Shown here one piece after another: positions 12,894 to 38,674 of a stretch of DNA of 64,000 nt (positions are counted from its first letter, which is position 1; every line of letters begins with the position of its first letter). A model generated the notes under the pieces. It was not told the origin of the DNA, did no database searches, and saw only the letters and a list, made by a program, of their open reading frames with translations. Position numbers and translations under genes: made by a program. The stretch spans positions 1,674,001 through 1,738,000 of the forward strand of contig NZ_CP041151.1 in the NCBI RefSeq assembly GCF_006494715.1. The letters run 5' to 3'. The DNA comes from Shewanella sp. SNU WT4 (GTDB lineage: Bacteria; Pseudomonadota; Gammaproteobacteria; Enterobacterales; Shewanellaceae).

Positions 12894-15117
12894 ATGACTG
12901 TGTATCATAAATTTTCGGCGATCGCTTTTGCTGTTGCTGCGGCATTACCGATGATGGCGCCCGCCGGTGTATTGACATCTGAATATGTAGACGGTAGTTC
13001 TTATAACACAGGGCTAGAAATTTATAGTTCGGGTGATAGCGTGCAAGTGTTATCACCCTTTAGTTGTCAAGCTGCAATTATTACCCCTATTTATGACGTT
13101 CAAGGCGAGGGGGCATCTAGCCCGCTTATTCCTCAAGGCTCATTTACATCAAAGCAAGAATACACAGTTAAAGGTGTAGTAACAGCCCGCGGTGAAAGCT
13201 TGTTTAAAGGTTTTTATCTGCATGATCTTGAAGGCGATAATAATCCAAAGACCTCAGATGGTGTTTTTGTGTATTTGGGCGGAGCAGTACCTACGGAACT
13301 TGTGCCTGGCATAGAAGTATGTGTGCAAGGACTAGTTGAAGAGAAGTTTGGGTTAACGCAAATCAATATCAGCAAAGATAAAAAGTTTGCTATTGGTGCC
13401 AAAGTACCTGTGCCTACAGCCATTCCTTTAAAAATTCACTCTGATGAAAGCTTAAGCGAGGCATTAGAGCGTTACGAGGGCATGAAAGTAGTGCTCGATG
13501 CTGGCAGTGATCTTAAAGTCAGCCGTAATTTTAGTTTTGATTACAGTGCCAAACGCAATAACTTAGTCGCCTCATACCGAGCGCCTTTAATGAAGCCAAC
13601 TCAGTTATACCCTGCGCTCAGCAATGAAGCGTTGGCATTGGCCAAGGCCAATTTAGACAATCAAGTAGTGATTGAATCTGACCTTAAAGCCCCCAACGGT
13701 GTTATTCCTTACTTCCCTGATTTTAATGCTGAAACTGGCTATATCCGGGTGGGTGATCAAATCCAAAATCTAGAAGCCATGGTTGGCTATAGCTATGGCA
13801 GCTATCGTCTGGTAGCAACTAATACTGTAACTTCTACCGATTTTGTCCGTCTACAAGATAGAGTGACAGCCCCCGCTATTGCCTCTCAAGGCGACATTCG
13901 GGTAGCAAGCTTTAACGTCCTCAATTTCTTTAATGAGGTAGTTGGTGGTGACACTAATCCTACGGGGAAAAACCGCGGCGCCTTGAGTGAAGCTGAAATG
14001 GTATTGCAGCGTACGAAAATAGTGAACGCGCTTACTGCTATGGATGCCGATATCGTTGGTTTGATGGAAATTGCTAACAATGGTTTTGGTGAGTTAAGCG
14101 CGATTCAACATCTGTTAGATGCGCTAAATGCGCAGTTAAGTAACGAAGACGCTTATGCTTTTGTGTCATTGCGCGACCAAGATAAGTATCAGCAAAAATA
14201 CTTTGGCAGTGATGCTATTACAGTCGGTCTCCTTTATCGACCAAGTGTAGTGAACCTAAAAGGTGATGCCAAGGTGATAATTACGCCTGAGCAACATACC
14301 AAACCCGGTACCATTTCGCGGCCTTTAGCTAATGGCGAACAAGAAATGAATCCGGGTAATAGTGCCTATCAGCGTCATAGTTTGCTGCAAACCTTTTTTA
14401 GTGAACGAGCAGCCATTAACTGTGGTAGTTAATCATTTTAAATCAAAAGGTTCCGGCTGTTTAGAAGATTGGTTAAGCTTTGAAGAATCAAAAGACCCCG
14501 CCGATATGCAAGGTAAATGTAATGAGTTTCGGGTCTCTGCTGCCACTGTATTAGGTGAAGCAGTTAAACAGATTGAAGGCGATGTATTAGTGATAGGTGA
14601 TCTTAATGCCTATGGCATGGAAGACCCATTATTAGTTTTGACGGATTATGATGCTAAACATTCACAGCGAGACATAGTTACAGCATCGCATACGACCTTA
14701 GGGGCTAATACCTTTGAAGAGCAGGGGCGTATTATTGATAAGGGATATGGTCTAATTAATTTAAATACCAAATTTCATGGTCAAGGTACGTATTCATACA
14801 GTTATAACGGTGAGCTAGGTAATTTAGACCATGCATTAGGTAATACAAGTGTTGCGGCGCGAGTTATCGCGGTTGAGGATTGGCATATCAATGCATCTGA
14901 ATCTAATTTATTTGAATACGGCACTAAATATACTGGTGATCTAGTTAAATCAGAAAATGCCTTTTCAGCCTCAGATCACGACCCAGTGATCATAGCACTC
15001 GAATATCCTGACTCGTCTGATGATGGCAGTAGTGGTGGATCATTGGGTATATTTAGTTTGGTATTGTTAGGGTTGCTCGGTTTTAGGCGGGGCAGTAAAA
15101 ATAATAGCCATAGCTAA
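12894..15117 (+). pseudogene. exeM: ExeM/NucH-type extracellular endonuclease, split by a frameshift
   Basis: Two overlapping frames (12894-14432 and up to 15117) make one protein of about 740 residues. The first begins with a signal peptide (ATG after AAGGA), then an OB-fold-like nuclease-associated region (TVKGVVTARGE...FYLHDLEGD), then the start of the endonuclease/exonuclease/phosphatase domain (IRVASFNVLNFF, DIVGLMEI). The second continues with TVVVNHFKSKGSGC, VIGDLNAYG and FSASDHDPVI, and ends in a Gly-Gly-CTERM tail (SSGGSLGIFSLVLLGLLGFRRG) of the type processed by rhombosortase. The break is at a T6 run (14394-14399); with five Ts the frame reads TFLVNEQPL, as expected. Relatives degrade extracellular DNA. 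Either a real mutation or a sequencing error. Confidence 0.85.
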
Positions 15118-15194: not shown

Positions 15195-16522
15195 CTGAAG
15201 GATCCCCTCATAAATCGGCCATAGCATAGCCATATTTGAGTAACTGATTGGCGAATAATACCCACGCCGCCAGCAATTCTTTCTCCGTGATTTGATAATC
15301 AGGCCGCCTGAGTACCTCCAATCCCAAGCGAATCGTTGAGAGTACCGTTCGATGCCCAATGGTATTGGCCTGAAAATGCTTATCCCAGCCCTGTTGCTGT
15401 GCATGTAAACCAACTAGCCACAACAGGCATTGAACCATTAACGCAATCAGTAGGATGATGTCGAATCGCTCTGGACTGTTGGTACGACTTTGGCGTAAGC
15501 CAAAGCCGTATGCCGGGCTTTTGAGGTCACGAAAGGTCTCTTCAATTTGCATACGTTTGGCGTACCGGTTTACCAGCTGTTTTGGGCTCCGAGATCCTGG
15601 TGGTAAGTTGCTGGCTAACACCCAAGGTTCTCTCGCCGCTGTTGAGTACGTTTTTGCTGATGGATGGTGGCAATTCGTCCTGGTTGAACGCTGATTTGTA
15701 CGGCCCTTAGGTTTGCTACGATACAGCGTGAGATAACAATTGATAGGGTTAGATTTGGTTAAGAGCTTACACCCTAGGCTCTTCGCTCGACTGTTGGCCA
15801 AGTCATGTGTACTGCGCACTGCACGCCAATTTTCGGCGCCAATATCTGCAAATTGAACTGTACCGCGAATACGGCTTAGCCAAAACCAACCATGCGCCTC
15901 AACCTCTTTGTACCAAGGCACTTTGAACCCCGCGTCAGTCACGATGAGAGGGGTAACATGCAAAGGTAAAATCTTGGCTAAGTCCGCTAAAAAACCGTTG
16001 TGGGCGGCCTTAGAGCATTGTTCTGATAGGGGATAGGATTTCTCATATAGGGTAATAGAGCGGCCATTGAAGGCTATTGAGGCGCGCAGAGCCATGATGC
16101 GTTTATGCTCTCGGATGTCTGACCAATCGACGAGCACAATCGGCATAGGGTTACCTGAACAGATGAGGCTGGCATGCCATTGGTAGACAGCTAACCGCTC
16201 TTGATGCAGATGCATGTTGCCGAGCAAACGATCAATGCGCTTGATGTTGTGCTTGGTTCGGGCCGTGGTTGGTAAATTTCGACCTAACTCGGTCAAGGTT
16301 AGCGTCTTGCATTCAATCAGCGCCTTAGAGGCCAGCATCAAGCTGTTTAATCGTTTTAGGTGAAGTTCTGGGCAGTATTGGTGTAAAGAATGTTGTAGGA
16401 TATTGGCTTCGCGCATCTTGTTGTCCAAGTGTAGTTTTTGACGAAACCATTTGATCATGCAACAAGATGCGCTTCCACCCTAATTTGATGATTTATTTGT
16501 AAATTATCAGGGGATTCCTCAG
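15195..16522 (-). mobile_element. IS10-like insertion sequence (IS4 family), 1328 bp, intact
   Basis: The ends are imperfect inverted repeats: CTGAAGGATCCCCTCATAAA at the left and, read inward from the right, CTGAGGAATCCCCTGATAAT. Both resemble IS10 ends (CTGAGAGATCCCCTCATAATT). The length is within a base or two of IS10 (1329 bp). A perfect 9-bp direct repeat TACTGCGTA flanks it. It lies 77 bp after the exeM stop and interrupts no recognisable gene. With intact ends, gene and target duplication it looks recent and potentially active. Confidence 0.95.
15208..16416 (-). CDS. IS10-like transposase (IS4 family)
   Basis: 402 residues from the ATG at 16416, exactly the IS10 transposase length; the frame extends 14 codons further upstream. 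It matches my recollection of the IS10 protein over long blocks: CPELHLKRLNSL, TLTELGRNLPT, RTKHNIKRIDRLLGN, MPIVLVDWSDIRE, RMQIEETFRDLKSPAYG. DDE residues are visible: D of VDWSDIRE, D of VTDAGFKVPWYK and E in the IEETFRDLK (YREK-type) motif. Cut-and-paste transposition is the known mechanism. No frameshift or stop interrupts it. Confidence 0.96.
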   Translation of the reverse strand: MREANILQHSLHQYCPELHLKRLNSLMLASKALIECKTLTLTELGRNLPTTARTKHNIKRIDRLLGNMHLHQERLAVYQWHASLICSGNPMPIVLVDWSDIREHKRIMALRASIAFNGRSITLYEKSYPLSEQCSKAAHNGFLADLAKILPLHVTPLIVTDAGFKVPWYKEVEAHGWFWLSRIRGTVQFADIGAENWRAVRSTHDLANSRAKSLGCKLLTKSNPINCYLTLYRSKPKGRTNQRSTRTNCHHPSAKTYSTAAREPWVLASNLPPGSRSPKQLVNRYAKRMQIEETFRDLKSPAYGFGLRQSRTNSPERFDIILLIALMVQCLLWLVGLHAQQQGWDKHFQANTIGHRTVLSTIRLGLEVLRRPDYQITEKELLAAWVLFANQLLKYGYAMADL

Positions 16523-16531: not shown

Positions 16532-16744
16532 TTCTTTCATCAGTACTATGGCGCTGCATAATAACAATAGTCAGTGGTACAAATTACTGGTGTGATTGCC
16601 AAAAAGTTAACTCTATTACTAACAAATGATTGGTACTATTTACGCCTATACTTGTATTAATCCTCGAGACATCATAAACATATATCATATTCAGTGGGCA
16701 CTATAGTGGTTTTTTAATTCACGCCAATACGAACTGTTGCATAA

Positions 16745-16844
16745 CTATTGTGTTGTCGAGTTCGAGACCATCTGAGGCACGGATGCCTTAGTTAAGCCCA
16801 CATGGATGTGCTTGCGGCGGGTCGAGAAATTGACAACACAGTAG
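16745..16844 (+). repeat. 100-bp dispersed repeat, copy A: two GGA-loop hairpins inside a long dyad
   Basis: It is bounded by CTATTGTGTTGTC (16745-16757) and its inverted partner GACAACACAGTAG (16832-16844), 12 of 13 bases complementary. Inside are two hairpins: CTGAGGCA-CGGA-TGCCTTAG (16772-16791) and CACA-TGGA-TGTG (16799-16810), each with a GGA-containing tetraloop, then CTTGCGGCG. A GCGGCGGG/CCCGCCGC pair (from 16813 and 16845) could form an alternative stem. The core aligns without gaps to the minus strand of 36467-36566. It lies about 280 bp upstream of ybiT. Possible RNA element or REP-like repeat. The remainder of 16532-17125 shows no gene. Confidence 0.7.
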
Positions 16845-17125
16845 CCCGCCGCAGGCGATTGACTACGACAACGAATAGATAAGGAAAATAGCATTACCTT
16901 TACTCATAACCATCGGATTACAAACACCACTTAATGAAAAAACCTATCGCCAATAACAAAGCCAAACACTGAGCAATTTACGGCTACAAATCACCATCAT
17001 ACTCATACACTCACAACTCAGTCTTGCCCATGACAAGACTTCGCCATGCTGCTATACTCCGCCATTTGTTTAGGCCGACCGTTTGGGTTGGTTACATACC
17101 CTCAGCTTGAATTTGGAAGCGAATT

Positions 17126-19720: not shown

Positions 19721-20618
19721 AGTGTCCCCCTTAATCTGAGGTTGAAGGTTAACTGTTAACTTATATGATCTTGGCTGCTTAAGTCTTAAAACATGACTCT
19801 TTAAGTCACTGGGCTTAAGGTTGCAAAAGTGTTGCACTAAGCTAGCTTAACGCTTGGTTGATGTGAGCACAAATGCCGCAACCGAGTTGATAAACTGCTG
19901 AATGCATAAACCGGGCGAGCTGGACTGCTTGGTTATCTTTGGTTCAGTGGGCCTTTATGGAGTCATAGTTAGCAGCGGGAGTGCGGTTTAGGGATTTTTC
20001 AGTCAACGGCAAAACTTGCATTTTTGGCTGTGATTGGCCAGTGAGCGGGATATTTTTGACACGCACTTGAGTCATATTGTCTCGCTCAGTGAGTTAAGTG
20101 CTGAACCCTTGCTCCTAGCTAACTGATTGCCATTCTCATCAAGATGCTTGCCGCTGAAAATTCAAACTGCCACCAAGACAAAACCACAATTCTAGCGCGG
20201 TTAAAGGTGCGGTATTGATGTCGGCGGCTATTAATTCTGCGTTTAGCCTGTCAATGCATAAAATTCTCTCTGCGCAAAAGTGGACATTCTGTCTAAGATT
20301 GTTGAGACCATTTGTCCTTGTCGGTCGCGTCATGATTTTATGGTGTTGCACTCTGAATTCGCCAGCTAGCATACCGCTTTGCGGCATATTATTTTGCATT
20401 CGGCGCATATTTTGGTGTTTGCATCTTTCGCTGTCTTTATGTGATCTCTGTCGTTAGTAATAATTTGGTCTTATAGCGGACTTTGGGGATAATCGCGGCA
20501 GTCGGTTAGCCTTGTTTCTGTGCGCAGGAATAAGATGACAGGCAATATCTGCAAATATTCACTGACGACTTATGTTAAGCGTCAGTAATAAATGAATACA
20601 CCAAAGTGTGAGGGTCTT
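19721..20618. other. Non-coding region upstream of the formate dehydrogenase operon
   Basis: About 900 bp without a supportable gene; open frames at 20139-20408 (minus) and 20215-20457 (plus) overlap each other and have no recognisable features. The fdn promoter should be here. A near-perfect hairpin, ACTGACG-A-CTTA / TAAG-CGTCAGT (20561-20586), ends 32 nt before the fdnG ATG and would lie in its 5' leader. Confidence 0.5.
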
Positions 20619-23600
20619 ATGGACAGACGACAGTTTTTTAAACTGTGTGCCTGCGGTGCGACAACCTCAGCAATCTCGGCCTTGGGCTTAATGCCCGGCA
20701 CTGCGATGGCTGCGCCCCGTGAGTATAAGTTGCTAAAAGCCAAAGAAACCCGCAATAACTGTTGTTATTGCTCTGTGGGTTGTGGCTTGTTGATGTACAG
20801 TTATGGCAGTAACGGTAAAAATGCCGAGAAAGCCATTTTTCATATCGAAGGTGATGCTGACCATCCGGTCAATCGTGGCGCCTTGTGTCCTAAAGGTGCG
20901 GGTCTGGTTGATTATGTCAACAGCCCTAATCGCAACCATTTCCCTGAAGTTCGCGAAGCTGGCAGCAATGAGTGGAAACGCATTAGCTGGGATGAGGCAT
21001 TTAACCGCATCGCCCGTTTAATGAAAGATGACCGCGATGCCAACTTAATCGAAAAGAATAGTGATGGCACCACAGTTAACCGCTGGTTAACTACGGGCAT
21101 GATGACCTCATCTGCTCAGCCTAACGAAGGCGGGTTTATTACCCACAAGTTTGCTCGTTCGCTTGGCTTAGTGGCCATCGATACTATTGCGCGTAACTGA
21201 CACTCCCCAACGGTAGCAAGTCTTGCTCCAACATTTGGGCGCGGTGCCATGACCAACCACTGGATCGATATTAAAAACTCCAATGTGGTAGTGATCATGG
21301 GCGGTAATGCCGCCGAAGCACATCCTGTCGGTTTTGGCTGGGTTACAGAAGCCATGGAACACAATAACGCCAAGTTGGTGGTTGTGGATCCACGATTTAC
21401 CCGTAGTGCGGCACTAGCCGATTGCTATGCCCCTATTCGCAGCGGTACCGATATTGCATTTTTACTCGGTGTAAGCCGCTACTTGATTGAAACCAATCAA
21501 GTGAATCATGAGTATGTAAAGGCTTATACCAATGCCAGTTACATAGTGCGTGAAGATTTTGAATTTACCGATGGTTTGTTCAGTGGTTTTGATGAAAAGA
21601 CTCGAACCTATGATAAAGAAACCTGGTACTACGAACTCGACGAGCAAGGTTATGCCAAGGTTGATGACAGCCTGACGCATCCACGTTGTGTTTGGAACTT
21701 ATTGAAAAAACACGTAGATCGCTACGATTTTGACACGGTAAGTAATATTACAGGTACGCCTGTGGCGGATTACGAGAAAGTATGTGCCCTGATTGGTAGC
21801 ACTCACACTCATGATAAAGCCGCGACCTTTATGTATGCCTTAGGTTGGACTCACCATTCAAAAGGTGCCCAGAACATTCGTTCTATGGCCATGGTGCAGT
21901 TGCTGCTGGGTAACATTGGCGTATTGGGTGGTGGGGTCAATGCCTTACGTGGTCACTCAAACGTTCAAGGCGCCACAGATATGGGGCTTTTGTGCCAAAA
22001 CTTACCTGGCTATCTTAAGTTACCTAACGATAACGACAGAGATCTTAAGACCTATTTAGGTAATTACACGCCTACGCCTTTGCGTCCGGGCCAGACTAAC
22101 TATTGGTCTAATTATCCTAAGTTCTTCGTGTCGCAAATGAAGAGTTTCTGGGGTGATAACGCCACCGCTGACAATAGCTATGGTTACGACTGGTTACCTA
22201 AGTGGGATATACAGTACGACTTTACCAAGCACATAGACATGATGTTCCACGGCAAGGTGAATGGTTATTTCATTCAAGGCGTTAACGCGATTAACTCCAT
22301 GCCTAACCGTAACAAGGTATTAGCGGCTCTGTGTCAGCTTAAGTACATGGTAGTGCTTGACCCGATTGCGACAGAAACCTCAGTGTTCTGGCAAAAAGCG
22401 GGCGAGTTCAACAATGTTGAGCCAAGCGAAATTCAGACTCAGGTATTCCGTTTACCGACGACCCTATTTGCCGAAGAAGAAGGCTGTATCGTGAACTCAG
22501 GTCGCTGGATGCAGTGGCACTGGAAGGGTGCTAATGCTCCGGGTGAATCTAAGCCTGATGCGGAAATTTTATCTGGCATCTTGCTGAAACTTAGAGAGCT
22601 CTATCGCGATGAAGGCGGGGTATTGCCTGAGCCTGTGCAAGCCATTAATTGGAATTATCACGACCCTAAATTCCCTCATGGTGAAGAAGTGGCAAAAGAG
22701 CTTAACGGCCGTGATTTAACCACAGGTAAGCAGCTTGATAGTTTCAGCCAACTTAAAGATGACGGTACTACCGCTTGCGGTTGCTGGATTTATAGTGGCA
22801 GCTGGACCGAAGCTGGCAACATGATGGCGCGCCGAGATAACTCAGATCCATCCGGTAAAGGTATTACTCCGGGCTGGGCATTCTCGTGGCCTGCTAATCG
22901 CCGCGTGCTGTATAACCGCGCCTCGTGTGATGTCAATGGTAAGCCTTGGGATCCAAAACGTGTGATTGTGCAATGGCATCAAGATAAATGGCACGGCATA
23001 GATCAAGGCGACTTTAACATGAAGTTATCGCCGCAAGATTCTGCGCATCCATTCATTATGCAGCCAGAGGGCGTGGGCCGTTTCTTTGCCTTGAAGATGC
23101 TCGCTGAAGGACCATTCCCTGAGCATTACGAGCCAGTGGAATCGCCGATTGGTACTAACCCACTGCATCCTAATGTCGTGAGTAACCCAGCGATTCGTAT
23201 GTTGCCAGGTGTAGCTGAAACCTTAGGTTCGCATAAGGATTTCCCTTATGTGTGTACCACTTACTCGCTAACTGAACACTTTAACTTCTGGACAAGCCAT
23301 TGCCGTCTAGCCGCGATTTCTATGCCAGAAACCTTTGTGGAGTTAGATGAAGTATTGGCAGCCGCTAAGGGCATTAACAATGGCGATTGGGTCAAGGTGA
23401 GCTCTAAGCGTGGCAGCATATTGACGAAAGCCTTAGTCACACAGCGTCTGCAACCGTTAAAGGTGAATGGCCAGTTAGTGCATACCGTGGGGTTACCGCG
23501 TCACGGCGGCCATAACGCCTTAACTCGTAAGAGTTATAGCTGTAACGTACTGACCACAGAAGTGGGTGATGCTAATACTCAAGTGCCTGAATTTAAGGCG

Positions 23601-23636
23601 TTCCTTGTGGATATCACTAAGGCTGAGGGGATGTAA
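20619..23636 (+). CDS. fdnG: Formate dehydrogenase major subunit, selenocysteine-containing
   Basis: 1005 residues if the TGA at 21198-21200 is read as selenocysteine (residue 194; E. coli FdnG has Sec196). The ATG at 20619 follows GAGGG; an in-phase ATG at 20592 is less likely. The N-terminus DRRQFFK...LGLMPGTAMAA is a Tat signal, so the enzyme is exported folded. Cysteines NCCYCSVGC and ALCPKG bind a [4Fe-4S] cluster. After the UGA the frame reads HSPTVASLAPTFGRGAMTNHW, the standard sequence around the active site. The C-terminal MopB domain binds bis-MGD (Mo or W). It oxidises formate to CO2 in the periplasm, passing electrons to the FeS and cytochrome b subunits encoded next. Confidence 0.95.
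21198..21236 (+). promoter_or_regulatory. UGA selenocysteine codon with SECIS-like hairpin
   Basis: The UGA is followed by ACGGTAGCAAGTCTTGCTCC, which folds as GG-U-AGCA(A)-GUC-(U)UGCU-CC. A bulged U below the apical stem and GU in the loop are the features SelB recognises in E. coli fdhF/fdnG. The reading frame stays open and FDH-like on both sides, and selA, selB and tRNA-Sec lie a few kb downstream. Confidence 0.93.
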
Positions 23637-29784: not shown

Positions 29785-29816
29785 GCGGAAGAACATAAGC
29801 TTGGCGGAAGAACATA
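29785..29816. repeat. Partial duplication of the tRNA-Sec 3' end
   Basis: GCGGAAGAACATA occurs at 29785-29797 and again at 29804-29816, where the second copy is part of the 3' acceptor arm of tRNA-Sec (read on the minus strand). The 19-bp spacing is too short for an integrated element. Confidence 0.85.
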
Positions 29817-29896
29817 GGAGTTGAACCTACCTGGGGCTGCTGGCAGCCCCACCTGGATTTGAAATCCAGACGTTTCACCGGAAACGACGTTCTTCC
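29802..29896 (-). tRNA. selC: tRNA-Sec (anticodon UCA)
   Basis: 95 nt on the minus strand, convergent with selB. It shows the Sec-specific 8-bp acceptor stem GGAAGAAC / GTTCTTCC, discriminator G and encoded CCA, an anticodon stem CTGGAT...ATCCAG with loop TTTCAAA (anticodon TCA), a long variable arm GGGGCTG-CCA-GCAGCCCC, and the T arm TAGG-TTCAACT-CCTA. Length and fold match E. coli selC. Confidence 0.97.
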
Positions 29897-36400: not shown

Positions 36401-36466
36401 TCTTAAACTTCTTCAGTGGATAGGCGGCAAAGCAGGGCAGTTAGCTCAGTTATCGCTAGGCGTATT

Positions 36467-36566
36467 ATTAAGCGCTGTCATGCCTGTGACACGCAGCAAG
36501 TACATCCTTGTATGCTCGATGGCGGCATCCATGCCGCCAACGGTCACTTTCACGCCAGCGCTTAAT
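36467..36566 (-). repeat. 100-bp dispersed repeat, copy B (inverted relative to copy A)
   Basis: It is bounded by perfect 11-bp inverted repeats ATTAAGCGCTG (36467-36477) and CAGCGCTTAAT (36556-36566). On the minus strand it contains TTGGCGGCA-TGGA-TGCCGCCA and TACA-AGGA-TGTA followed by CTTGCTGCG. The core aligns base for base with copy A (16771-16819): GGCAnGGATGCC, 12 nt, ACAnGGATGTnCTTGCnGCG. The second hairpin contains ATACAAGGATGT, a full match to the published CsrA SELEX consensus RUACARGGAUGU. Confidence 0.7.
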
Positions 36567-36571
36567 ATCGG

Positions 36572-37129
36572 TTAATCATCAGTGATTGATAGACAGGAAA
36601 CTGATTTAGAGTTTGCATTAGGTTTAAATTTTAATTTAACTATCTCACCGTCTATTTTTGCACCTACATCCATGTCAAAGTAAATGCGTTCAAGCTTTAA
36701 TGATTTAAGATCAAACTCGAATAGTTTAGGTAAAATATTTTTGTTGCAAAAGCGTAATAGATTTGAGTTGCCTTTTTCTTTGTTTTTTAATATTTCATTA
36801 TATGTACTTAAATTGGTAGTTATTGCAAATGATTTAATATGTTCACCTATTGAAACGTCTTCTCCATTGAGCAAGTTTGAAGCGTAGGTTAATGAATCGT
36901 AATCGTCTGCTGATATTTCAAAGTAATCATAAATAGGAGCAGGTAAGTGATATTTTTCTGCGATTTTTTTATAGCACTCAATAACATGGATAATATTGCC
37001 AAATTCTTTTAAATGCTCTATCTCTGATTCATTATTTTCTCCAAGTTGCAACGGCCCAATGGTTTGACCTTCGTCTAATTCCAAACCAATAGTTAATCCT
37101 CCTCCGTTTTGCAGGGTATCTTTAGCCAT
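36572..37129 (-). CDS. Orphan hypothetical protein next to an IS end
   Basis: 185 residues from the ATG at 37129; the frame runs on to 37153 but that part lies inside the IS element. I do not recognise a family. The protein is acidic and soluble (LTIGLELDEGQTIGPLQLGENNESEIEHLKEF), with no signal or membrane helix. The codons are visibly more AT-rich than in neighbouring genes, which suggests acquisition. The IS50-like element begins only 7 bp upstream of the ATG, so the native promoter and probably the ribosome site are gone. AGAGACAGG, contributed mainly by the IS tip, may act as a weak ribosome site. Confidence 0.55.
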   Translation of the reverse strand: MAKDTLQNGGGLTIGLELDEGQTIGPLQLGENNESEIEHLKEFGNIIHVIECYKKIAEKYHLPAPIYDYFEISADDYDSLTYASNLLNGEDVSIGEHIKSFAITTNLSTYNEILKNKEKGNSNLLRFCNKNILPKLFEFDLKSLKLERIYFDMDVGAKIDGEIVKLKFKPNANSKSVSCLSITDD

Positions 37130-37136
37130 TAATAGC

Positions 37137-38674
37137 CTGTCTCTACTACACAAATTATTAGCAAAAAATGGAACTTTCTTGACTGGCGATGATCAGATCA
37201 TGCAAATTCACTCACTTCATCATTTTTAATGTCAATTTTTAACCCGAACAAATGGGCATATGATCACTTTCATCATGCTGAGCTAGGTGATAAACGACGA
37301 GCGGCAAGGTTAACCGTCGTCGCTGAACACATGGCGGTTGGCAGCGGTAAATCGGTTGCCAGATCTTGTAATGGTGAAGATGCCAAACTCGAAGGAGCCT
37401 ATCGATTGATCCGCAATGATAATGTTAGCCCATCTATGATCAGAGCCGCCGGTTTTGCTCGCACCGCCCAAGCGATTGAAAATATAAATGAAATACTTGC
37501 TCTCGAAGACACGACAGCCCTGAGTTATAAGCACAGTGTGGCGTCTGAATTAGGGAAATTAGGCAAACCTACCGATAAGTCTCGTGGTTGGTGGGTTCAT
37601 TCTGTCTTGCTACTGGATAGCCATACTTCTCGGACCTTGGGCTTGATCCACCAAGATTGGTGGTGTCGACCTGATAATCCCAACGAGGCCGATGAAAAAG
37701 AGAGCGGTAAATGGGCCGATGCATCCTATTTTACGCGGCAACGCTTGCAGGCTCACATGTCGCGAGTGATCTCAGTGTGTGATAGAGAAGCGGATATCAT
37801 GCATTATTTATCGGATAAACAATCACATAGTGAACGGTTTGTGGTGCGGGCAAAACATGCAAGAAACCTAGTAGAATACGAGGCTAAGCTGTTTGAGCAC
37901 ATGGATAGTCATCCCGTTACCGGCGGATACACCATCGCCATCCCACAAAAAGGCATAAAGGAAGCCAGTGGGAAAAGCAAGAATCGTCCCTCGCGAACAG
38001 CCAAACTCACCCTCAAAGCCAGTGCGGTTAACATCAAACATAATCGTCAGCAGCATGCGATTAATGTGGTGTACGCACAAGAGCTCAATCCTCCCCAAGG
38101 TGAAGATGGACTATCTTGGATGCTACTGACCAGTGAGCCGATTGACACGTTGGCGCAGCAACTTCATGTGATTGATATTTATACCACTAGATGGCGCATT
38201 GAGGACTTTCATAAGGCGTGGAAAACCGGCGCGGGGGTTGAAAGGTTACGCATGACATCGCCAGACAACCTTGAGCGAGCGGCCTCGATACTTTGCTTTA
38301 TTGGTGTGCGGCTACTGCAACTTCGGGAAGTGATGAGCCTGCCAATTTATCTGAGAAAAAGAGGGCAAATCGAAGCAGCGCAAAGCATGGAAAATCAAAG
38401 CTGCAGCAATGTCTTAGAGAATGATGAATGGCGAGTACTGATGCAGCTCTACAAGCCAAGGGGACATAAAGGCAAAGAAGCCCCAAATATGAAGTGGGCT
38501 TATCAATCCTTGGCCAAACTAGGAGGCTTTAATGATAGCAAGCGCACGGGAATGGCCAGCTGGTCCACGATTTGGGAGGGATGGGATGATCTTCAGGCTC
38601 AGGTAAAGGGGTATCGCTTAGCCAAAGCCCTATTTGAAGCCGGAGAAACGCTATGAGATCTGATCAAGAGACAG
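37137..38674 (+). mobile_element. IS50-like insertion sequence (IS4 family, Tn5 group), 1538 bp
   Basis: The right end, read inward, is CTGTCTCTTGATCAGATCT, the same 19 bp as I recall for the Tn5/IS50 inside end, including its two GATC sites. The left end is CTGTCTCTACTACACAAAT, 15 of 19 matching the Tn5 outside end. The size is close to IS50 (1534 bp). No 9-bp duplication is found: left flank ATTAATAGC, right flank ACACTGCGC. A deletion or recombination next to the element is the likely reason. Confidence 0.92.
37229..38656 (+). CDS. IS50/Tn5-like transposase
   Basis: 475 residues, one less than Tn5 transposase. N-terminal DNA-binding region (WAYDHFHHAELGDKRRAARL), then the RNase H-like core with DDE residues in ALEDTTALSY, VCDREADI and the YREK-type motif TRWRIEDFHKAWKTGAGVERLR. 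The C-terminal dimerisation region ends in GYRLAKALFEAGETL. The frame is uninterrupted. Tn5 family enzymes cut and paste, with Dam methylation of the inside end as a control, and both GATC sites are kept here. Confidence 0.95.
   Translation: MSIFNPNKWAYDHFHHAELGDKRRAARLTVVAEHMAVGSGKSVARSCNGEDAKLEGAYRLIRNDNVSPSMIRAAGFARTAQAIENINEILALEDTTALSYKHSVASELGKLGKPTDKSRGWWVHSVLLLDSHTSRTLGLIHQDWWCRPDNPNEADEKESGKWADASYFTRQRLQAHMSRVISVCDREADIMHYLSDKQSHSERFVVRAKHARNLVEYEAKLFEHMDSHPVTGGYTIAIPQKGIKEASGKSKNRPSRTAKLTLKASAVNIKHNRQQHAINVVYAQELNPPQGEDGLSWMLLTSEPIDTLAQQLHVIDIYTTRWRIEDFHKAWKTGAGVERLRMTSPDNLERAASILCFIGVRLLQLREVMSLPIYLRKRGQIEAAQSMENQSCSNVLENDEWRVLMQLYKPRGHKGKEAPNMKWAYQSLAKLGGFNDSKRTGMASWSTIWEGWDDLQAQVKGYRLAKALFEAGETL

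Follow-up and report, generated by a model that had tools for sequence, protein, structure and literature searches.

A YPAL-type palindromic element of Gammaproteobacteria with two conserved GGA hairpin loops, a candidate CsrA-type RNA module

The stretch of Shewanella sp. SNU WT4 DNA analysed here (64,000 nt, called the window) contains two 100-nt elements with paired arms, copy A at positions 16745-16844 on the forward strand and copy B at 36467-36566 on the reverse strand, as a first-pass annotation of the sequence had described (Table 1). Just upstream of copy A lies an ORF for an IS10-like transposase (15208-16477, reverse strand, 416 aa) with a full match to the antisense RNA RNA-OUT (RF00240, 82.7 bits), and the region 12894-15117 has two ORFs (512 and 251 aa) that overlap in different frames and read like one frameshifted gene, which we take to be a secreted nuclease gene. 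A SECIS element (21195-21253) is surrounded by ORFs (20592-23636) that are presumably formate dehydrogenase-like, and a selenocysteine tRNA (29806-29896) follows 6 kb further on. A 193-aa ORF (36572-37153), the stop and last codons of which are apparently supplied by the 5' extension of copy B, adjoins a transposase ORF (37229-38656) that we assume to be of the IS4 type.

Table 1. Positions of the parts of copies A and B in the window, with the basis of each assignment
Feature	Position	Strand	Basis
Copy A, whole unit (5' extension, palindromic arms, core, 3' palindrome)	16731..16859, approximate ends	+	alignment with A-type copies L003, L004 and L005
Copy A, outer stem, 5' arm (pairs with 16821-16844)	16745..16768	+	fold, arm pairing
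Copy A, hairpin 1, hexaloop ACGGAU at 16779-16784	16769..16794	+	fold; covariation in 88 copies
Copy A, hairpin 2, hexaloop AUGGAU at 16802-16807, 5-nt bulge CUUGC at 16811-16815	16796..16818	+	fold; covariation, including bulge positions 1 and 4
Copy A, outer stem, 3' arm	16821..16844	+	fold, arm pairing
GTAG and palindrome GCCCGCCGCAGGC (REP-like), common to A-type copies	16841..16859	+	pattern search, comparison of A-type copies
Copy B, whole unit	36465..36593, approximate ends	-	whole-unit matches in other genomes of the genus and comparison by eye
Copy B, outer stem, 5' arm	36543..36566	-	fold, arm pairing
Copy B, hairpin 1, hexaloop AUGGAU at 36527-36532	36517..36542	-	fold; covariation
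Copy B, hairpin 2, hexaloop AAGGAU at 36504-36509, bulge CUUGC at 36496-36500	36493..36515	-	family alignment, covariation
Copy B, outer stem, 3' arm	36467..36490	-	fold, arm pairing

The predicted folds of copies A and B were better than those of 200 out of 200 shuffled sequences in each case (z -5.71 and -5.16, respectively). Hairpin 2 of copy B was drawn differently in the single-sequence fold, and its placement was taken from the family alignment. The GGA motifs are 23 nt apart, as first noted, when counted between the first Gs of the two loops. The loops had been described as tetraloops (CGGA and TGGA in copy A, TGGA and AGGA in copy B); these letters are present, but the loops are better read as hexaloops of the form ANGGAN, closed by C-G or U-A. 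Both units exceed the 100 nt originally assigned to them, copy A by a 5' extension and a 3' palindrome, GTAGCCCGCCGCAGGCGAT, its ends having been set where the flanks of the A-type copies cease to match. Three more A-type copies, with the same arms, the same 5' extension and the same 3' palindrome, are present in the host genome, and copy A is the most diverged of the four. Relatives of copy B as whole 100-nt units were found in other genomes of the host genus, the best at 80-91% identity, and the copy B query was matched in 100 of 129 genomes of the genus, its own included, many of them in the core only (the best four candidates were scored per genome). The outer arms of A and B, which pair within each copy, are thus unlike each other, as had been pointed out, because A and B represent two subfamilies; within a subfamily, however, the arms are inherited. 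Two of the A-type copies (L003 and L004) are inverted and lie about 1.8 kb apart, with an ORF between them that we take to be P-loop, KAP-like, and a similar ORF is found near copies in two other genomes of the genus (L180, L189).

The first-pass annotation had viewed the element as a dispersed repeat, which was borne out by five copies in the genome and by covariance matches in other genomes. The joint two-hairpin pattern occurred at five places in the 4.13-Mb host genome (up to three mismatches), compared with none for the reversed control; five copies were clear, four of them A-type, and the covariance model produced seven matches at E 0.001. Within the window the model matched copies A (E 8.7e-17) and B (E 8e-20) only, and since both were among its 88 training sequences these E-values express fit and are no independent proof; the independent evidence is the wide family in other genomes. 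A covariance search of relatives, which had been recommended at the outset, found the family in 54 of 274 gammaproteobacterial genomes (the best 17 candidates at most being scored per genome), the highest count being 48 matches (E 0.01) in one 2.0-Mb assembly (G220). The pattern of hairpin 2 matched at least 120 stretches of named contigs, the hosts of which, all seemingly Gammaproteobacteria by title, included Rheinheimera, Marinobacter, Pseudomonas, Xanthomonas, Stenotrophomonas, Microbulbifer, Saccharospirillum, Methylocucumis, Pantoea, Pectobacterium, Yersinia and Shewanella, besides others, among the matches listed. Plasmids, phages and Escherichia coli genomes gave no match with the copy A query, nor did plasmids and E. 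coli with a 58-nt consensus, both queries being short and of limited sensitivity; the one match among viral contigs was a piece carrying a copy of the Yersinia repeat YPAL.

The alignment used for the structural analysis (A3) comprised 88 distinct, ungapped copies of equal inner length, the remainder of 154 pattern hits once these had been filtered for pairing and freed of duplicates. The core folds into a three-way junction on long arms that are variable in sequence and nevertheless paired, the modelled parts being 14 arm pairs, hairpin 1 directly beside the arms, and hairpin 2, which is interrupted by a bulge of five nucleotides, YUURC. Two-sided changes were observed in 26 of 31 pairs, with 747 cells changed on both sides versus 208 in shuffled alignments, and 91.9% of cells were paired, versus 64.3% in shuffled and 25-47% in slid controls, a proportion inflated by the copies having been filtered for pairing. 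Compensatory changes, the absence of which had been named beforehand as grounds for abandoning the proposed CsrA-binding element, were present in all 14 arm pairs and in 9 of 10 pairs of hairpin 1. Mutual information calculated without a given structure placed the proposed pairs on top, and added a pair between positions 1 and 4 of the bulge (C-G or U-A). A pair below hairpin 2 (inner positions 29 and 47 of A3) also covaries (C-G, U-A, A-U, G-C), and has G·A as a common second state (33 of 122), a frequency too high for a broken pair.

The paired arms had a median extent of about 28 nt and were perfect for 28-49 bp in some genomes. That they arise as inverted target duplications made at each insertion was considered and is unsupported within subfamilies, where arms are shared; perfect arms of 28-49 bp unlike those of other copies in the same genome are left over from this idea, examples being L118 (the same element as L224) and L220, with perfect arms of 39-49 bp. 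Other repeat-like sequence was inserted into, or replaced, hairpin 1 in six copies (L043, L058, L085, L120, L137 and L293), several of these inserts containing CCATCCATGG and GGA, with another GGA hairpin on the complementary strand. In two further copies (L245:1399-1526, forward strand, and L254:505-632, reverse strand) an insert of about 48 nt in hairpin 2 carries an additional hairpin, the loop of which is TGGA.

Were the palindrome selected as a double strand, G·T and A·C mispairs should be tolerated equally well. On the GGA-bearing strand, G·U outnumbered A·C in every set: 81 to 17 in the 88 aligned copies, for which Watson-Crick pairs alone had counted in the filter, 234 to 126 when all 151 hits were taken unfiltered, 48 to 16 in the 61 copies from named gammaproteobacterial loci (29 copies with more G·U and 6 with more A·C), and 57 to 2 in the host genus. 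Among 39 diverged representatives the count was 37 to 19 (G·U prevailing in 20 copies and A·C in 7, p 0.019), and it was 21 to 11 in six genomes (p 0.11 by copies) and 19 to 9 in G220 and a second assembly, G347 (p 0.09; 28 to 24 in a first count that included loop positions), the last two sets not being significant alone. It follows that the GGA strand is the folded, selected strand, and the molecule under selection is most likely this strand in single-stranded form, as RNA or as DNA.

Both loops were ANGGAN hexaloops in 38 of 39 representatives of less than 70% identity, in 65 of 67 ungapped copies from six genomes, in 46 of 46 from the host genus and in 15 of 17 from G220 and G347, all of these copies having been aligned by the covariance model, which itself rewards GGA. 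For the named loci, which were found by hairpin 2 alone, hairpin 1 gives evidence free of this bias: its stem paired at standard spacing (five of six pairs, the loop not being used) in 64 of 115 distinct hits among the matches listed, and the loop was ANGGAN in all 64. In the 61 named-locus copies of the alignment, the stem columns of hairpin 1 varied by 1.2-1.9 bits, while the A and the GGA of the loop were invariant, the closing C and G were present in 59 and 58 copies, respectively, and the variable loop positions were the two N of C-A-N-G-G-A-N-G; the other 27 aligned copies came from whole-unit similarity or the hairpin-1 pattern and are biased for this loop. The position after GGA in hairpin 2 of the G220 and G347 copies was C in 11, T in 7, G in 6 and A in 5 cases, and this freedom identifies a hexaloop and not a tetraloop.

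The proposed likeness to binding sites of CsrA/Rsm proteins held at the level of sequence, where both loops match ANGGAN and hairpin 2 matches the SELEX consensus RUACARGGAUGU. According to excerpts of three papers (PMC4347634, PMC7652899, PMC3791407), the ligands selected with this consensus mostly had six-nucleotide loops closed by AC/GU pairs, ANGGAN hexaloops are reported for RsmE and RsmN, and CsrB contains CAGGA(U/A/C)G repeats. The same excerpts state that most SELEX ligands had stems of at most four pairs and that very stable stems may hinder CsrA. Hairpin 2 has four pairs above its bulge and hairpin 1 has 8-11, a misfit to the SELEX ligands; the short stem is a preference of these ligands, and no absolute requirement. 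Compared with CsrB/RsmZ-type RNAs, the element has the ANGGAN loops in common, and the CsrB repeat resembles hairpin 1, C-A-N-G-G-A-(U/C/A)-G; unlike those RNAs, which have many sites, it is dispersed, with two sites per unit, and its own promoter or terminator was not found. The conserved AGC, the bulge YUURC and the GCG would be superfluous for CsrA, which suggests another or an additional reader.

The host CsrA is nearly identical to the solved CsrA over residues 1-59, with few differences, and has kept Arg44, which we take to be a relevant residue. CsrA was found in 50 of the 54 element-bearing genomes, as against 235 of all 274; among genomes at least 90% complete the figures were 42 of 43 with the element and 170 of 193 without (p 0.09, not significant). 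It was not found in four element-bearing genomes, namely G347, G220, G159 and G251, the last two being less complete. In G347 (98% complete, 10 copies) and G220 (88% complete, 48 copies) no CsrA was detected and the loops were kept in 15 of 17 ungapped copies, possibly because CsrA is missing from the assembly or because a different reader is used. Titles and starts of abstracts in the open-licence literature contained, among the matches listed, no link of this repeat, or of a bacterial MITE, to CsrA, and the Rfam 12.0 paper, in which both terms are frequent, treats them separately in the excerpts available.

The core string, searched for in six spellings, was found in one paper of the open-licence literature, within the Yersinia repeat RU-2/YPAL, which is said to have been described originally by De Gregorio et al. 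in 2006. The YPAL sequence printed in excerpts of the relevant papers contains hairpin 1, GAGC, hairpin 2, the bulge and GCG in this order and fits the pattern exactly, and YPAL is characterised there as MITE-like, intergenic and present in many copies, inserted at sites of dyad symmetry with target duplications of 3-26 bp (PMC2759123, PMC2229807). It is also reported as co-transcribed (the review's word is co-translated) with upstream genes, and the excerpts, which cover YPAL in Yersinia and Erwinia carotovora, describe no three-way junction with CsrA-type loops (PMC2759123, PMC2229807). Copies in Yersinia similis were recovered by the hairpin-2 pattern and occupied the same alignment positions with the same fold. 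The copies thus have core sequence and fold in common with YPAL, and are likewise multi-copy and intergenic (1 of 210 intragenic by heuristic gene calls). Accordingly, we regard copies A and B as non-autonomous, MITE-like elements of one gammaproteobacterial superfamily that includes YPAL.

The first-pass annotation had alternatively considered a REP-like repeat with incidental resemblance to CsrA sites. This is partly right, the element being a repeat of the YPAL/MITE type. GTAG/CGTC REPs and BIMEs are also palindromic, intergenic and multi-copy, and copy A has a GTAG palindrome at its 3' end; they differ in being hairpins of 20-40 nt, in contrast to the 52-nt three-way junction of the core, and in 4 of the 25 element-bearing genomes tested (of the 54) no Y1 transposase was found. 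The GTAG tag pattern had eight matches in the window (up to three mismatches) versus 3.5 expected, a number reached by 4 of 100 shuffles; it was exact only at copy A and is an appendage of the A-type copies. Reverse transcriptase (RVT_1) was not found in 12 of the same 25 genomes, and one, G390 (99% complete), was without both. Mobilisation by Y1 (REP/IS200-type) transposases or by reverse transcriptases is therefore unsupported as a general rule in these current hosts, in several of which they were not found, and neither class is needed where copies now sit.

Signs of insertion were present at a few copies. AT-rich direct repeats of 8-9 bp flanked four copies (L250, L316, L324 and L331) in three genomes, two of them with clear terminal inverted repeats, and a 14-bp direct repeat was present at L205. 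Altogether, direct repeats of at least 8 bp flanked 5 of 248 copies, versus 0.3% in re-paired flanks; one of the five, at L251, is probably inside the unit. The G220 and G347 copies lie in units with unrelated terminal inverted repeats, and the ends of one G220 subfamily occurred in that assembly only at MITE copies. A search with joined flanks (30 loci, 27 aligned to a conserved gene) found no clean empty site; nine loci had the core pattern, several copies were decayed or changed, and the others had different sequence. In the host genus, the site downstream of one conserved gene, which we take to be GIY-YIG-like, was filled, decayed or different across related species, and the hairpin-1 stems differed among the filled sites. 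A stretch, AGGATAGGACGAGCAGTCCT...GGTGAAGCCCCACGAC, recurs beside this gene in four loci where the element is absent (L279, L280, L289 and L298).

The genomic context was assessed for 210 copies with a codon-scored, heuristic gene caller without annotation (L118 and L224, being one element, were counted twice). The GGA strand was sense to the tandem flanking genes in 44 cases and antisense in 78, while 39 copies lay between convergent and 22 between divergent genes, 26 at edges and 1 within a gene, so that 183 copies were placed. These numbers supersede a cruder first count of 99 copies, many under spurious ORFs (sense in 10 and antisense in 21 cases where no ORF overlapped, and in 12 and 8 cases, respectively, where one did). 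The tandem antisense bias (p 0.0027 overall) stemmed largely from G234 (16:2) and G329 (8:1), the ratio being 54:41 without both, and the named gammaproteobacterial loci alone had 27 antisense and 22 sense copies. Hence there is no sense bias of the GGA strand to flanking genes, more neighbouring mRNAs would carry its complement, and gene orientation argues against routine read-through of the GGA strand.

The orientation of the copies bears on the proposal that the element belongs to the fixed regulatory equipment of the host and subjects its neighbours, ybiT for example, to control by CsrA in cis. In favour of this, the motif and its spacing suit CsrA, and copy A lies in sense orientation some 0.3 kb before the start of the ybiT ORF. 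Against this, over the 183 placed copies the GGA strand is not sense-biased, apart from a few large common families no gene family was convincingly recurrent among the neighbours, and the site downstream of the GIY-YIG-like gene holds, lacks or has decayed copies in related species. Csr control of ybiT or other neighbours is thus unsupported and this reading very unlikely; the lack of sense bias and of terminator tracts speaks against a general CsrA site in neighbouring mRNAs and against ybiT as a designed target. The CsrA idea itself is better founded than the first-pass annotation had supposed, at the level of the element and not of the neighbouring gene.

A more probable though still quite unlikely reading is a terminator or stabilising hairpin in mRNA 3' UTRs, as proposed for REPs and YPAL, in which the loops would be irrelevant. 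At least one gene 3' end lay beside 161 of the 183 placed copies, at tandem median distances from the stop of 63 nt (antisense) and 103 nt (sense), and the reported co-transcription of YPAL would agree with such a role. However, of 192 copies one had TTTT after the 3' arm (control 6) and 13 had AAAA before the 5' arm (control 11), so that an intrinsic terminator was rejected, the hairpin having no U-tract on either flank. In addition, the mRNA of the nearest gene end has the complement more often than the GGA strand (98 versus 63), yet tolerance of G·U favours the GGA strand.

Even less probable than cis control is the reading of the copies as small RNA genes, each under a promoter of its own. 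At gathering level no Rfam family was found at the element, and at a relaxed level only weak DicF and antisense, sub-threshold Ysr224 matches were obtained. The latter, to a Yersinia small RNA family (RF02770), cover copy B and L003 in full length (25.5 and 21.1 bits, gathering threshold 70), but lie on the opposite (UCC) strand; inspection by eye of the sequence upstream of copies revealed no shared promoter, and no terminator was found.

The main rival, which we rate as somewhat unlikely, holds that the folded GGA strand acts as single-stranded DNA, as the recognition structure of a putative transposition or recombination enzyme, and that its resemblance to CsrA sites is a coincidence. An enzyme that recognises hairpins would select for folding of one strand, for a bulge and junction that do not vary and for arms that vary freely while pairing, and would leave no sense bias, all of which is seen here; mobility of YPAL is reported in the excerpts cited (PMC2759123, PMC2229807), and the loops persist where CsrA was not found. 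It is less easily reconciled with two otherwise different hairpins sharing exactly ANGGAN, with the right positions free, with Y1 transposase, reverse transcriptase or, in G390, both not being found in some of the 25 genomes, or with the observation that no protein family stood out near copies.

The reading that we prefer, to which we give about even chances, is that the copies are a mobile palindromic element of the YPAL type in which a CsrA-type RNA module is embedded. Transcription of the GGA strand would come about by read-through or from outside promoters in either orientation, and the core of the single strand would fold into the three-way junction, presenting two ANGGAN hexaloops 23 nt apart. 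Two sites at this distance are close enough for one CsrA dimer. A dimer gripping both loops would make a transcribed copy a small CsrA ligand, which may affect Csr output, while the element would spread as DNA by a putative transposase, its subfamilies having different ends and a common core.

A little-noticed Yersinia repeat is hereby joined with repeats of Shewanella, Marinobacter, Xanthomonas, Rheinheimera, Pseudomonas and others in a single superfamily, the fold of which is precise and conserved, and for which a covariance model and a testable protein partner are now supplied. Tentatively, and with some doubt, we put forward the possibility of a transposable CsrA decoy, in which mobile elements across the Gammaproteobacteria keep a two-site CsrA-binding RNA module under changing arms and ends, and the copy number and transcription of a parasite tune the main post-transcriptional regulator of its host. 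If CsrA binds the element, target predictions confined to 5' UTRs would leave such decoys out, and the Csr/Rsm regulons of some genomes would have to be read together with many dispersed decoys.
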